Shown here one piece after another: positions 42,973 to 46,878 of a DNA stretch of 64,000 nucleotides. The notes under the pieces are model-generated. The model saw only the letters and a program-made list of their open reading frames with translations, did no database searches and was not told the origin of the DNA. The stretch lies in NCBI GenBank assembly GCA_028242535.1, contig JAOJYB010000003.1, positions 42,519 to 106,518 of the forward strand, given 5' to 3'. The translations under genes and the position numbers were made by a program. Source of the stretch: Candidatus Nitrosopelagicus sp. Its GTDB lineage: Archaea; Thermoproteota; Nitrososphaeria; Nitrososphaerales; Nitrosopumilaceae. The stretch's first letter is position 1; each line of letters begins with the position of its first letter.

Positions 42973-43173
42973 ATGGGTGACACAAATACTGAAAAATGGA
43001 AGACTGTTAAGCTGCCAAAAGGACTTTCAGAACGTGTTGATGAGTTTGTAAAAAGCCAAGAGGCTTATCATCAGGGATGGACGTCTAACTCACAAGTTGT
43101 TGCACATGCTATACGTCAGTTTTTAGAAAGTAAAGGAACTTGGAAAACCCCAGAGCATGAGCCTATTCACTAG
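42973..43173 (+). CDS. ribbon-helix-helix-like DNA-binding protein
   Basis: WKTVKLPKGLSERVDEFVKSQ...SNSQVVAHAIRQFLES. Confidence 0.65.
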   Translation: MGDTNTEKWKTVKLPKGLSERVDEFVKSQEAYHQGWTSNSQVVAHAIRQFLESKGTWKTPEHEPIH

Positions 43174-43175
43174 GA

Positions 43176-43577
43176 TTAGTTTTCTGAGAGTTTTGGGGTC
43201 GTATTAGTGAGTTTTAGTGTGTGATATGCCCATTCTCTGCCTTTTTTGGCTCTTTCAACCTTATTTTTAGAGGTAAATCTGGCCAAATATGTCGAAATTA
43301 CGCTAAGTTTGATTGGTTCGTTATACTCGTCTTCATATTTTTCTAGTATCTCTGAAGAAGTGAACTTACCAGTAGGGTAGTATTTGTCTACGATGTGCCA
43401 TATCTTGCCTCCGACTGTCTCTACACCCGGGTTGTTTGCAGTCTCTTCTATATTCAACAAGTCTAATAAATCGAAAATTTTGAGGACCTTATCACGATTG
43501 ATGTTGCCTTCCAAGTTGAACTTGTATTTGGCCCCATCCTTATCCTCTAGATCTATTCTAATTCTTTTTCCTGCCAT
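43176..43577 (-). CDS. hypothetical protein, possible wHTH
   Basis: Intact 133-aa ORF adjacent to the repeat-rich region. Confidence 0.55.
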   Translation of the reverse strand: MAGKRIRIDLEDKDGAKYKFNLEGNINRDKVLKIFDLLDLLNIEETANNPGVETVGGKIWHIVDKYYPTGKFTSSEILEKYEDEYNEPIKLSVISTYLARFTSKNKVERAKKGREWAYHTLKLTNTTPKLSEN

Positions 43578-43619
43578 TCAGATCAATAAGGATCCGACCT
43601 TAACTCATCAACTGATCTT

Positions 43620-44050
43620 CTGAGATTTGTTAACTAACAGGTTTGTTAACATTGACTGCCTAGCCCACGCCTGGGTAGTTTTTTATCATTAACAAAACTT
43701 GTTCCAACATCCCCCACAATTAAGATGATATCACGCCTAGACTGGAAATATGGGGGTTGTTTTAGGATATTAACAGTGTTAACAGCCATCTTCACACCTA
43801 GACTGGAAATAGGGGGGTAAAATGACCTTCTTTTTGTTTTCCTTAACATGTCCTTAACAATTGTTAATTATCCTCAGGCTTTTTAGATTTTTTATAAAAT
43901 TCTCTTATAAATTTTATTTTTCATTTTTATTTTTTAATATCCCACACACCAATCTTTCCAGTGTTGCCTTTTCTAATTTTTTTAAAATGAGAATTCATAT
44001 TCATATTATTTTTATTTTATTTCATTATACAATACAACCTATCATTAGAA
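43620..44050. other. putative chromosomal replication origin (ORB-like repeats plus AT-rich tract)
   Basis: Direct repeats CAC(G/A)CCTAGACTGGAAATA at 43732 and 43793, both followed by G-runs; multiple GTTAAC/TTAACA motifs; 14-bp palindrome TTAACAATTGTTAA at 43854; AT-rich tract approx. 43880-44040; adjacent orc1/cdc6. Confidence 0.7.
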
Positions 44051-44170
44051 ATGAAGGTGTCTGGGAGCGATCCTATCGATCTGAGAAGAGTCAACAAGAA
44101 CGATCAGTCTTGTGAAGTTTTTCAAAAAGATCAGTTGAACTGTTGTTTTGAAATAGTTAATGATCTCAAC

Positions 44171-45406
44171 ATGAGCACAACTACCATCGATCCAATTGAC
44201 CGTCTTTTAGATGCAGCCCAGAACGGTAAAATACTAATCAAGAATAGAGACGTACTCCACTTCACATTCATGCCTAATCAAATCCTTCATCGAGACCCTG
44301 AACAGGAAAAAATCACTCAATCTTTACTCCCAATTCTCATGGAATCAAGACCATCTAATTTACTGGTGTATGGCAAGCCTGGAACAGGCAAAACACTGGT
44401 AATCAAAAAAGTACTCTCAAAAATACAAAAAAGAGTAGAAGAGGGATCATTTCCAATTAAACTAGTATACACAAACGCAAAACAAGAGACAACCCTATAC
44501 GGACTTTTAGTATCATTTGGAAGGCAATTAGGTTTAGGTAGCCAAAAAACCACTGATGAGAAAATGTGGCTTCCAAGCACAGGATTATCCATAAGTGAGG
44601 TTTTTAATAGAATTCTCTATGTAATAGAAAAAAACGAGACAAACGCAGTATTCGTTATTGATGAAATTGATTACTTGGCAGAACTAATCCAAAAAACAGG
44701 TAAAGACGTCCTATACCAAATTACCAGAGCAAACGAGCGATTAACCACAGGCTCACTAACACTAATTGGTGTATCAAATGACCTTACCTTCAAAGAAAGG
44801 CTGGACCCACGGGTTATCAGTAGTTTAAGTGAGGAAGAGGTTGTCTTCACAAATTACAACTTACCCCAAATCAGAGAGATATTGAATGCTAGAATTGAGG
44901 TAGCTTTTGATGAAGATATAGTAACAGATTCGGCCTTGAATCTTTGTTCTGCTATGGCAGGAAGAGAATCAGGTGATGCAAGACGTGCACTTGATCTTTT
45001 ACGAGTAGCAGCAGAGATAGCAGAAAGAAGTCAAATGTCAACTGTAACAGAGGAGCACATCAGAATGGCAGCTGAAAAGATAGAGGAAAACAAAGAAGTC
45101 ATAGCACTTCGCTCATATCCACTACATGAAAAATTACTAATCTTAGCAATTATGAAATCGTCAGAGATATCCACAGGTGAGGTATATTCAACATACAAAA
45201 GCCTCTGTAAAGATATACGCCAAAAAGAGCTCACTCAAAGAAGAGTTACTCAAATGCTCAGTGAGATAGAAATGTCAGGAATTATTGCTGGTAGAATCGT
45301 TCACCAAGGCACACATGGAAACACAAAGAAATTCAGAATTACAGTCTCACCTGATATGGTAAAAACTACCTTCAAAGATGAGATGTTACTAGAAGATATT
45401 CTCTAA
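44171..45406 (+). CDS. cdc6: Orc1/Cdc6 replication initiator
   Basis: GKPGTGKTLVIKKVL Walker A, VFVIDEIDYL Walker B, RESGDARRALDLLRVAAEIAE sensor 2, C-terminal wHTH; ATG at 44171 preferred over track start 44051. Confidence 0.93.
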   Translation: MSTTTIDPIDRLLDAAQNGKILIKNRDVLHFTFMPNQILHRDPEQEKITQSLLPILMESRPSNLLVYGKPGTGKTLVIKKVLSKIQKRVEEGSFPIKLVYTNAKQETTLYGLLVSFGRQLGLGSQKTTDEKMWLPSTGLSISEVFNRILYVIEKNETNAVFVIDEIDYLAELIQKTGKDVLYQITRANERLTTGSLTLIGVSNDLTFKERLDPRVISSLSEEEVVFTNYNLPQIREILNARIEVAFDEDIVTDSALNLCSAMAGRESGDARRALDLLRVAAEIAERSQMSTVTEEHIRMAAEKIEENKEVIALRSYPLHEKLLILAIMKSSEISTGEVYSTYKSLCKDIRQKELTQRRVTQMLSEIEMSGIIAGRIVHQGTHGNTKKFRITVSPDMVKTTFKDEMLLEDIL

Positions 45407-46878
45407 CCAAGTGGTGCAGGCTCTGCATACTTTGGTTCAATAAAGTCTGATTCTTGAACACGAAAGTCCTTTTGGAAAACCTTCATTGTTTGCAGGTTCA
45501 CTATAATGGCCATTCCTGGAGTAGGTGTAATCCCAACACTTTCCTGAAAATCAGTCTGTCTTTGCCATGCGCCTGAATTAATTATTAATACCCCTTTGTA
45601 CATATCAAGACCCACAAAATGAACATGCCCAGAATGGAAAATATCTGGAATATCATCAATTACCATCATATCTTCTGTTTCAGGCGCAATTGGTGTTCTG
45701 CTTCCATAAATTGGACTCATATGTCTGGCCTTTAGAAAATGTCTCATCACAGCAGCTGGTTTATCATAACTAACTCCAGGTGTAGTCCTAACTACATCAT
45801 CTATGGACTGACCATGATACATCAAAACCTTAACCCCATTTAGTGAGACCATTGATGGATTTCCTAGCATGAAGAAATTCTCCCTATCCCATAGTTGAGA
45901 ATTGTACATCTTTGGAATTGCTGGTTGTGGAAGAGCCTTTCTTCCAGCATCATGGTTTCCAGATATGAGGAAAACCTTGATGTGTTTTGGAATTCTATCT
46001 AAGACCTCAAACGTCTTTTGTAATTGACCTTCGGTTGTTGTTTGGTTCAATATCTTTTCTTGACCTGGGAACACACCTACTCCATCAATCAAATCTCCCC
46101 CTACTACAACAAATCTGATCTTTCTAGCTATCGAATCTGCACTTGAAATCCAATTGATAAATTCTGATAACTCCTCTTCCATGAAGAATTTACTTCCAAC
46201 GTGTAAATCTGATAGAAATACGGCATATGTCTCAGTTTTTGAGCGATTTGTAGTATGTTCTGGTATATCTGGAAGGAATATCTCTTTTGCAAAAAATCCT
46301 CCATTTTTAGCAGGTACTATTCTTAACATTGCAAACTGGTCCATCAACAAAGTATCCGCCGTATCTTTCAAATCACCTTCAAAAACCACTATTTCCATCG
46401 AACTGGTAGGATCCTCAAGAGTAATTTTTGTAATTTTTCTATCTGATTTTCTATCTGAGACTAATCCCCACACAAACAACTCATCATCAGTTTTGGTAAT
46501 TGATTTCACAGATGCTATTTCTCTGACCTTTTTTGATTCTGGTCTATCTGACATTATCTGTTTTAATTTGTTAAATCTACTAGCAAATAATTTACCATAT
46601 CCATCAACACCTTCTGCAGAGGTTATTTTGTCAGTAGGATCCGATAAAATCTCAAATTCCACCTGATGTTCCTCGTCATCCTTAATTCCTAGATAAATCT
46701 CAAAATCTTCTTCGTTTATCAAGAATTGTTTCTGTTTGGTCTTTTCTCTAACAACATCTTTGATAATTTGTGATAATTCACTTACATTGATTTTATGTAA
46801 AATTTCTAATGCATCAGGATGGATCTGGAATCCTTTATTCAGAGCATAAGAGACTGCTGAGGAAATTTCTTCATCCAT
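45403..46878 (-). CDS. polB: DNA polymerase D small subunit (DP1)
   Basis: Calcineurin-like phosphoesterase motifs FLSDLHVGS, VVVGGDLIDG, LISGNHDAGR, FHSGHVH in PolD architecture. Confidence 0.93.
   Translation of the reverse strand: MDEEISSAVSYALNKGFQIHPDALEILHKINVSELSQIIKDVVREKTKQKQFLINEEDFEIYLGIKDDEEHQVEFEILSDPTDKITSAEGVDGYGKLFASRFNKLKQIMSDRPESKKVREIASVKSITKTDDELFVWGLVSDRKSDRKITKITLEDPTSSMEIVVFEGDLKDTADTLLMDQFAMLRIVPAKNGGFFAKEIFLPDIPEHTTNRSKTETYAVFLSDLHVGSKFFMEEELSEFINWISSADSIARKIRFVVVGGDLIDGVGVFPGQEKILNQTTTEGQLQKTFEVLDRIPKHIKVFLISGNHDAGRKALPQPAIPKMYNSQLWDRENFFMLGNPSMVSLNGVKVLMYHGQSIDDVVRTTPGVSYDKPAAVMRHFLKARHMSPIYGSRTPIAPETEDMMVIDDIPDIFHSGHVHFVGLDMYKGVLIINSGAWQRQTDFQESVGITPTPGMAIIVNLQTMKVFQKDFRVQESDFIEPKYAEPAPLG

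Follow-up and report, generated by a model that had tools for sequence, protein, structure and literature searches.

A Predicted Chromosomal Replication Origin of Nitrosopelagicus with a TTAAC Site Array in Fixed Register to Its ORB Elements and a Divergent Winged-Helix Gene

The DNA considered here, the window, is a stretch of 64,000 nucleotides (positions 42519-106518 of contig C19) from a Nitrosopelagicus assembly of 1.007 Mb that is 81% complete. Within it, an interval of 473 bp separates the orc1/cdc6 reading frame from a divergent gene for a protein of 133 aa, here called wH (table 1). The identity of Orc1 is firm, as it scores 348 bits against TIGR02928 (cut-off 181) and also matches Cdc6_lid and Cdc6_C; orc1/cdc6 was found only once in this assembly. 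The wH protein has no assignment in Pfam or NCBIfam. Just past its gene there is an ORF of 66 aa (42973-43173) that resembles a small protein of the ribbon-helix-helix type and has no family match.

Table 1. Features of the orc1/cdc6 locus (positions in the window)
Feature	Position	Strand	Remark
wH, 133-aa winged-helix protein gene	43176-43577	-	Divergent from orc1 across the interval; candidate second origin protein
TTAAC site	43600-43604	+	Slot -138 relative to ORB1 core
GTTAAC site	43629-43634		Slot -109 relative to ORB1 core
GTTAAC site	43645-43650		Slot -93 relative to ORB1 core
Lone copy of ORB1/ORB2 5' extension, CACGCCTGGG	43666-43675	+	Conserved
TTAAC site	43689-43693	+	Slot -49 relative to ORB1 core
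ORB1	43732-43757 (core 43738)	+	5' extension CACGCC and G-string; 16/20
TTAAC site	43770-43774	+	Slot +32; conserved to other families
GTTAAC site	43778-43783		Slot +41; conserved to other families
TTCAC variant site	43791-43795	+	Slot +53, abuts ORB2; TTAAC in some relatives
ORB2	43793-43818 (core 43799)	+	61 bp after ORB1; 16/20
TTAAC site	43843-43847	+	Slot +106 relative to ORB1 core
14-bp palindrome TTAACAATTGTTAA	43854-43867		Holds slots +117 and +127
AT-rich tract 1, candidate unwinding element	43868-43940		73 bp, 86% AT, between ORB2 (+) and ORB3 (-)
ORB3, inverted	43941-43965 (core 43946)	-	GGTGTGTGGG replaces G-string; 14/20, 15/20 in G019
AT-rich tract 2	43966-44040		83% AT
ORB4	44041-44065	+	15/20; full ORB CTGGAGTGGAAATGGTGGTGTGTGAG in L062
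orc1 leader, noncoding, near-invariant	44051-44170	+	120 bp; five GATC sites; overlaps ORB4
orc1/cdc6	44171-45406	+	TIGR02928, Cdc6_C, Cdc6_lid
DNA polymerase D small subunit	45403-46878	-	Next gene after orc1

The orc1 ORF opens at 44051, which an earlier note on this DNA had taken as the start of the gene; however, translation most likely begins at 44171, because codons 1-40 have 1 synonymous versus 83 nonsynonymous changes (4823 versus 581 in codons 41-451) and one relative has an in-frame stop within them. On the same grounds the first 120 bp of the ORF are considered a noncoding leader, and the substitution pattern rules out a coding N-terminal extension of Orc1 there. A structured RNA in this leader was also rejected, with nothing credible in Rfam and a folding z of 0.04. 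A sixth GATC is present at 44189, and the GATC spacing of the leader is repeated in four other loci (L040-L043). The sequence AGATCAGTTGA occurs at 43609-43618 and, inverted, at 44129-44138, so that each of the two divergent genes has a copy in its leader; this pair may be a shared control element.

The intergenic DNA is rich in repeats. Two near-identical direct repeats that had been recorded there, CACGCCTAGACTGGAAATATGGGGG from 43732 and CACACCTAGACTGGAAATAGGGGGG from 43793, agree in 23 of 25 positions and are 61 bp apart; a partial relative beginning at 43666 and an inverted copy at 43941-43963 also lie where they had been placed. The 14-mer CCTAGACTGGAAAT has exactly two copies in the entire 1.007-Mb assembly, both in this interval. 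The proposal that the CCTAGACTGGAAAT element is the Orc1 box was examined with the published common ORB motif, TCCA[CG]T[TG]GAAA[TC][GA]AAGGGGT (PMC4164010, Table 1), which was derived from other archaea and hence provides a test that is independent of this region. The motif supports the proposal and finds four ORBs with the scores given in table 1, including ORB4, which had previously been overlooked; a stretch of 493 bp has four matches that score 14/20 or better, against an expectation of 0.29. A GGTGTGTG-type stretch stands where the G-string would be in ORB3 and ORB4. Among Nitrosopumilus-type relatives, ORB elements score up to 18/20 (e.g., TGGAGTGGAAATAAAGGGGT). In 23 of the 24 Nitrosopumilaceae compared, ORB1 and ORB2 are 61-62 bp apart, or about six helical turns, and the other families of the class mostly keep them at 60-62 bp. 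At one marine group I locus (L057:2576-3001), the usual ORB2 slot is without an ORB and there is an extra ORB 38 bp upstream of ORB1.

A single AT-rich stretch had been described from about 43880 to 44040; its AT-richness is borne out, but it consists of two tracts that are split by the inverted ORB3. Only 0.05% of 75-bp windows reach the AT content of the first of these (43868-43940). The second presumably also holds the orc1 promoter.

Interspersed among the ORBs is a second series of short sites. The recurrent GTTAAC/TTAACA motifs were already recognized in the earlier note, as was the palindrome at 43854-43867, and their coordinates all check. TTAAC or GTTAA occurs 12 times in the 473 bp, when the rest of the window predicts 1.0 and shuffled sequence 1.9 (maximum 8). 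In G019, a complete genome from the same genus, the corresponding region is the genome's TTAAC/GTTAA-richest 500-bp window, with 14 occurrences versus 7 for the runner-up. Ten slots were defined by their distance from ORB1, with the window as the only source, and chance was estimated from 2000 rotations. In 20 other Nitrosopumilaceae these slots were filled in 180 of 200 cases, with 35 expected and a maximum of 62 in any rotation. The three slots between ORB1 and ORB2 extend further: in other families, from which 15 members were scored, +32, +41, and +53 were filled in 13, 11, and 8, respectively, where about 2.6 would be expected for each. Most of the register is kept in L057, despite the absence of ORB2 from its usual position. 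In two loci (L018:1010-1510 and L039:1-368), lineage-specific insertions separate the AT-rich tract from the last TTAAC site, and we therefore consider the length of this spacer to be free and the ORB1-ORB2-TTAAC module to be rigid.

The most enriched 6-mer of the origin region in Nitrosopumilaceae is TGTTAA (193 versus 16 expected), and in the corresponding region of the Bathyarchaeia it is TGTGAA (52 versus 6.5). The upstream regions of orc1 in archaea without wH have no enrichment of TGTTAA/TGTGAA (31 observed versus 25 expected). The fixed register to ORB1 gives strong support to the earlier suggestion that the TTAACA elements are sites of a second class, and its rigidity makes it likely that a second protein binds the array.

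The AlphaFold2 model of wH (25 homologues) has a beta-hairpin and a helix followed by a winged helix, with a pLDDT of 75 overall and of about 87-94 for residues 61-120. Foldseek and weak profile matches relate it to ArsR, BlaI/MecI, and CopY domains, the best Foldseek E-values being no better than 0.01; the protein encoded in the window scores below the curated cut-offs of both PF03965 (19.8 versus 22.6 bits) and TIGR02698, CopY (19.2 versus 121.95 bits). Of 300 genomes from the class, 260 have the protein, as do 102 of 161 in a sample of the phylum. The wH gene adjoins orc1 in named Bathyarchaeota loci and, more weakly, in Asgard loci. Outside the family, 46 genomes have both wH and orc1, which are on one contig in 40; pairs were compared by hand, and the two genes are neighbors in all 40 (in three cases across the join of a contig that appears to be circular) and divergent in 36.

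In several lineages the two genes are apart. Where wH is far from orc1 in families f30, f35, and f50, the ORBs and a TGTKAA cluster remain at orc1 (12, 11, 7, and 5 sites in f30, with 1.8-2.6 expected), and the region upstream of wH has no ORB. The ORBs and sites likewise stay with orc1 in Nitrososphaeraceae-like genomes (f3) that have wH and orc1 on different contigs. A different arrangement is found in families f25, f46, f48, f54, and f56, where at least one ORB is directly upstream of wH and no ORB at 16 or 17 of 20 was found upstream of the orc1 copies examined, a subset of the paralogues. Across twelve 13-kb regions around wH from these five families there are 28 ORBs, every one of them upstream of wH by no more than about 2 kb, and Orc1 genes are absent. 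In these families wH is thus separate from orc1 and still accompanied by ORBs, so that it tracks the ORBs independently of orc1. In four of them (f25, f46, f48, and f54) there is little or no TGTKAA enrichment at the ORBs beside wH; because of this pattern and that of f30, f35, and f50, TTAAC-type sites and wH linkage are not strictly coupled. ORB clusters at wH, with no Orc1 gene for several kilobases, occur in loci L397-L408, from five families, and are candidate origins hidden from an orc1-based finder. A combination of the wH profile and ORBs may locate origins where orc1 is elsewhere, a case that is missed when the origin is assumed to adjoin orc1.

On this evidence, wH is the best guess for the protein that binds the TTAAC array, because sites and gene co-occur and wH is linked to the ORBs: one of the words TGTTAA and TGTGAA ranks first in each of the two large groups that have wH, and neither is enriched in the controls that lack it. 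The guess is weakened by the families that have wH at ORBs without TGTKAA enrichment, and we would give it about an even chance. That the array affects initiation at all is, we think, a slightly worse than even bet. The ORBs could mark an origin while the TTAAC array was simply the operator of the divergent orc1/wH promoters, used in autoregulation by wH or by some other factor, and itself took no direct part in initiation. The region does double as a divergent promoter region, and the similarity of the wH domain to the BlaI/MecI/CopY repressors makes a plain role in transcription possible. However, the sites also occupy the interval from ORB1 to ORB2, at fixed slots of which +32 and +41 are conserved between families, and in genomes in which wH is far away or on another contig they stay at the ORBs and orc1 and are fewer or absent upstream of wH. 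An operator of wH only is disfavored by these relocated genomes, since the sites stay with orc1; an operator of orc1 is possible. Taken as a whole, an operator explanation of the array seems to us rather unlikely.

It is still less probable that Orc1 itself, with no second protein being involved, recognizes TTAAC as an alternative or low-affinity target. The interleaving of the sites with the ORBs is compatible with this idea, and so is the presence of orc1 as the sole initiator gene found in the assembly; nevertheless, TTAAC and the ORB core have nothing in common, and upstream of orc1 in archaea without wH the sites are not enriched.

The asymmetry of the two strands also changes at this locus, as the earlier note had anticipated for an origin. 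Within the window, the skew is positive to the left of orc1 and negative to its right. In the complete G019 genome (1,232,128 bp, 97% read), the sign changes at orc1: the cumulative GC skew has its maximum there and its minimum at 613 kb, or at 575 kb when fourfold sites are used, and the antipode of orc1 is at 616 kb. The switch is also present in intergenic DNA and in the fourfold sites of both strands (P from 5e-5 to 5e-8). The leading strand in Nitrosopelagicus is C- and T-rich, a polarity opposite to that of most bacteria. This inverted polarity is pronounced in Nitrosopelagicus but only weak in G046, and G017 lacks it; it was rejected as a family-wide trait. A bacterial reading of the skew, with its cumulative maximum and not its minimum at orc1, would put the terminus at orc1 and the origin at the antipode, but this is highly improbable, given that the conserved ORB architecture and AT tract sit at orc1, that no ORB cluster is near 613 kb, that the strand bias of genes (f+ 0.54 versus 0.45, P = 0.03) is weakly codirectional with forks leaving orc1 and the one site matching 16S (478 kb, + strand) has this orientation too, and that N. 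maritimus has a mapped single origin (PMC4010727, PMC5333045).

The sequence features of an oriC1 are found together here: an adjacent orc1, at least two ORBs, an AT-rich tract between inverted ORBs, and an extreme of strand asymmetry. The replication origin that had been proposed beside orc1/cdc6 is upheld by the conservation of its elements upstream of orthologous orc1 genes across the Nitrosopumilaceae and beyond and by the switch in skew; judged from sequence comparison, the locus is almost certainly the chromosomal replication origin of Nitrosopelagicus and of the oriC1 type. A phage or mobile origin was considered and rejected, with no match in phage records. Orc1 from the adjacent gene very probably binds the ORBs, and would do so at the direct ORB1 and ORB2, the inverted ORB3, and ORB4 at the orc1 leader. 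The G-strings of ORB2 and ORB3 face the AT-rich tract between them, where, by extension from Sulfolobus, MCM would be loaded and from which forks would depart in both directions. The approximately ten TTAAC/GTTAAC sites, in a register fixed to ORB1 and ORB2, would make up an array distinct from the ORBs, bound by a protein and governing the geometry or the timing of initiation, with wH, the product of the divergent neighbor, as the likeliest protein to occupy it. The combined explanation, an oriC1 origin with a TTAAC protein-binding array of which wH is the likeliest binder, appears to us quite probable. A broader view is more tentative and somewhat short of an even prospect: wH could be an ancient TACK/Asgard origin factor that binds an array of fixed-register TGTKAA-type half-sites surrounding the ORBs and, with Orc1, builds a structure for the loading or gating of MCM. 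In the open-access literature we found no paper describing the fixed TTAAC array or the origin-linked winged-helix family, and it is these that are new here, an ORB-type origin itself being of a kind already known.

In N. maritimus one origin has been mapped and one is predicted by Ori-Finder 2 (PMC4010727, PMC4164010), and at the oriC1 of Sulfolobus inverted ORBs surround an AT-rich tract (PMC12141716). The present locus resembles the oriC1 of Sulfolobus, Pyrococcus, and N. maritimus in its adjacency to orc1/cdc6, its ORBs with G-strings, its inverted ORBs around an AT tract, and its skew switch. It differs from them in the fixed 61-62 bp between ORB1 and ORB2 with their CACGCCT extension, in having a fourth ORB that overlaps the orc1 leader, in the rigid TTAAC array, and in its inverted skew polarity. 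The wH domain has its fold and a weak profile similarity in common with the BlaI/MecI/CopY (Penicillinase_R) repressors; unlike them, it scores below the curated cut-offs, has an additional N-terminal beta-hairpin and helix, and is linked to ORBs and orc1.

The closest parallel comes from work on Sulfolobus in 2025, which revealed that an archaeal origin requires a non-ORB element, ucm, that is bound by the protein UBP; mutation of ucm abolishes firing of the origin with a normal level of Orc1 (PMC12141716). UBP contacts DNA via beta-hairpins, and its interaction with the MCM N-terminal domains was assayed by pull-down or two-hybrid (PMC12141716). It is limited to the Sulfolobales and Desulfurococcales, where its gene is a relatively recent acquisition, and its discoverers ask whether analogues exist in other lineages (PMC12141716). 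If wH is truly an origin factor, it would answer this question for the TACK/Asgard lineages. The locus offers a specific and testable candidate, both protein and sites, for ammonia-oxidizing archaea, the Bathyarchaeia, and some Asgard archaea. A search of PDB sequences with the wH profile, at E up to 5, matched no UBP chain. Both systems have a non-ORB element inside the origin with a small DNA-binding protein of its own, though for wH this is our inference. The ucm element occurs once, halfway along the unwinding element, whereas the present origin has about ten sites around ORB1 and ORB2; and wH, unlike UBP in fold, is a winged-helix protein that is encoded at the origin and spread over the Nitrososphaeria, the Bathyarchaeia, and some Asgard archaea. 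We regard wH as a candidate analogue of the Sulfolobus UBP and probably not its homologue.
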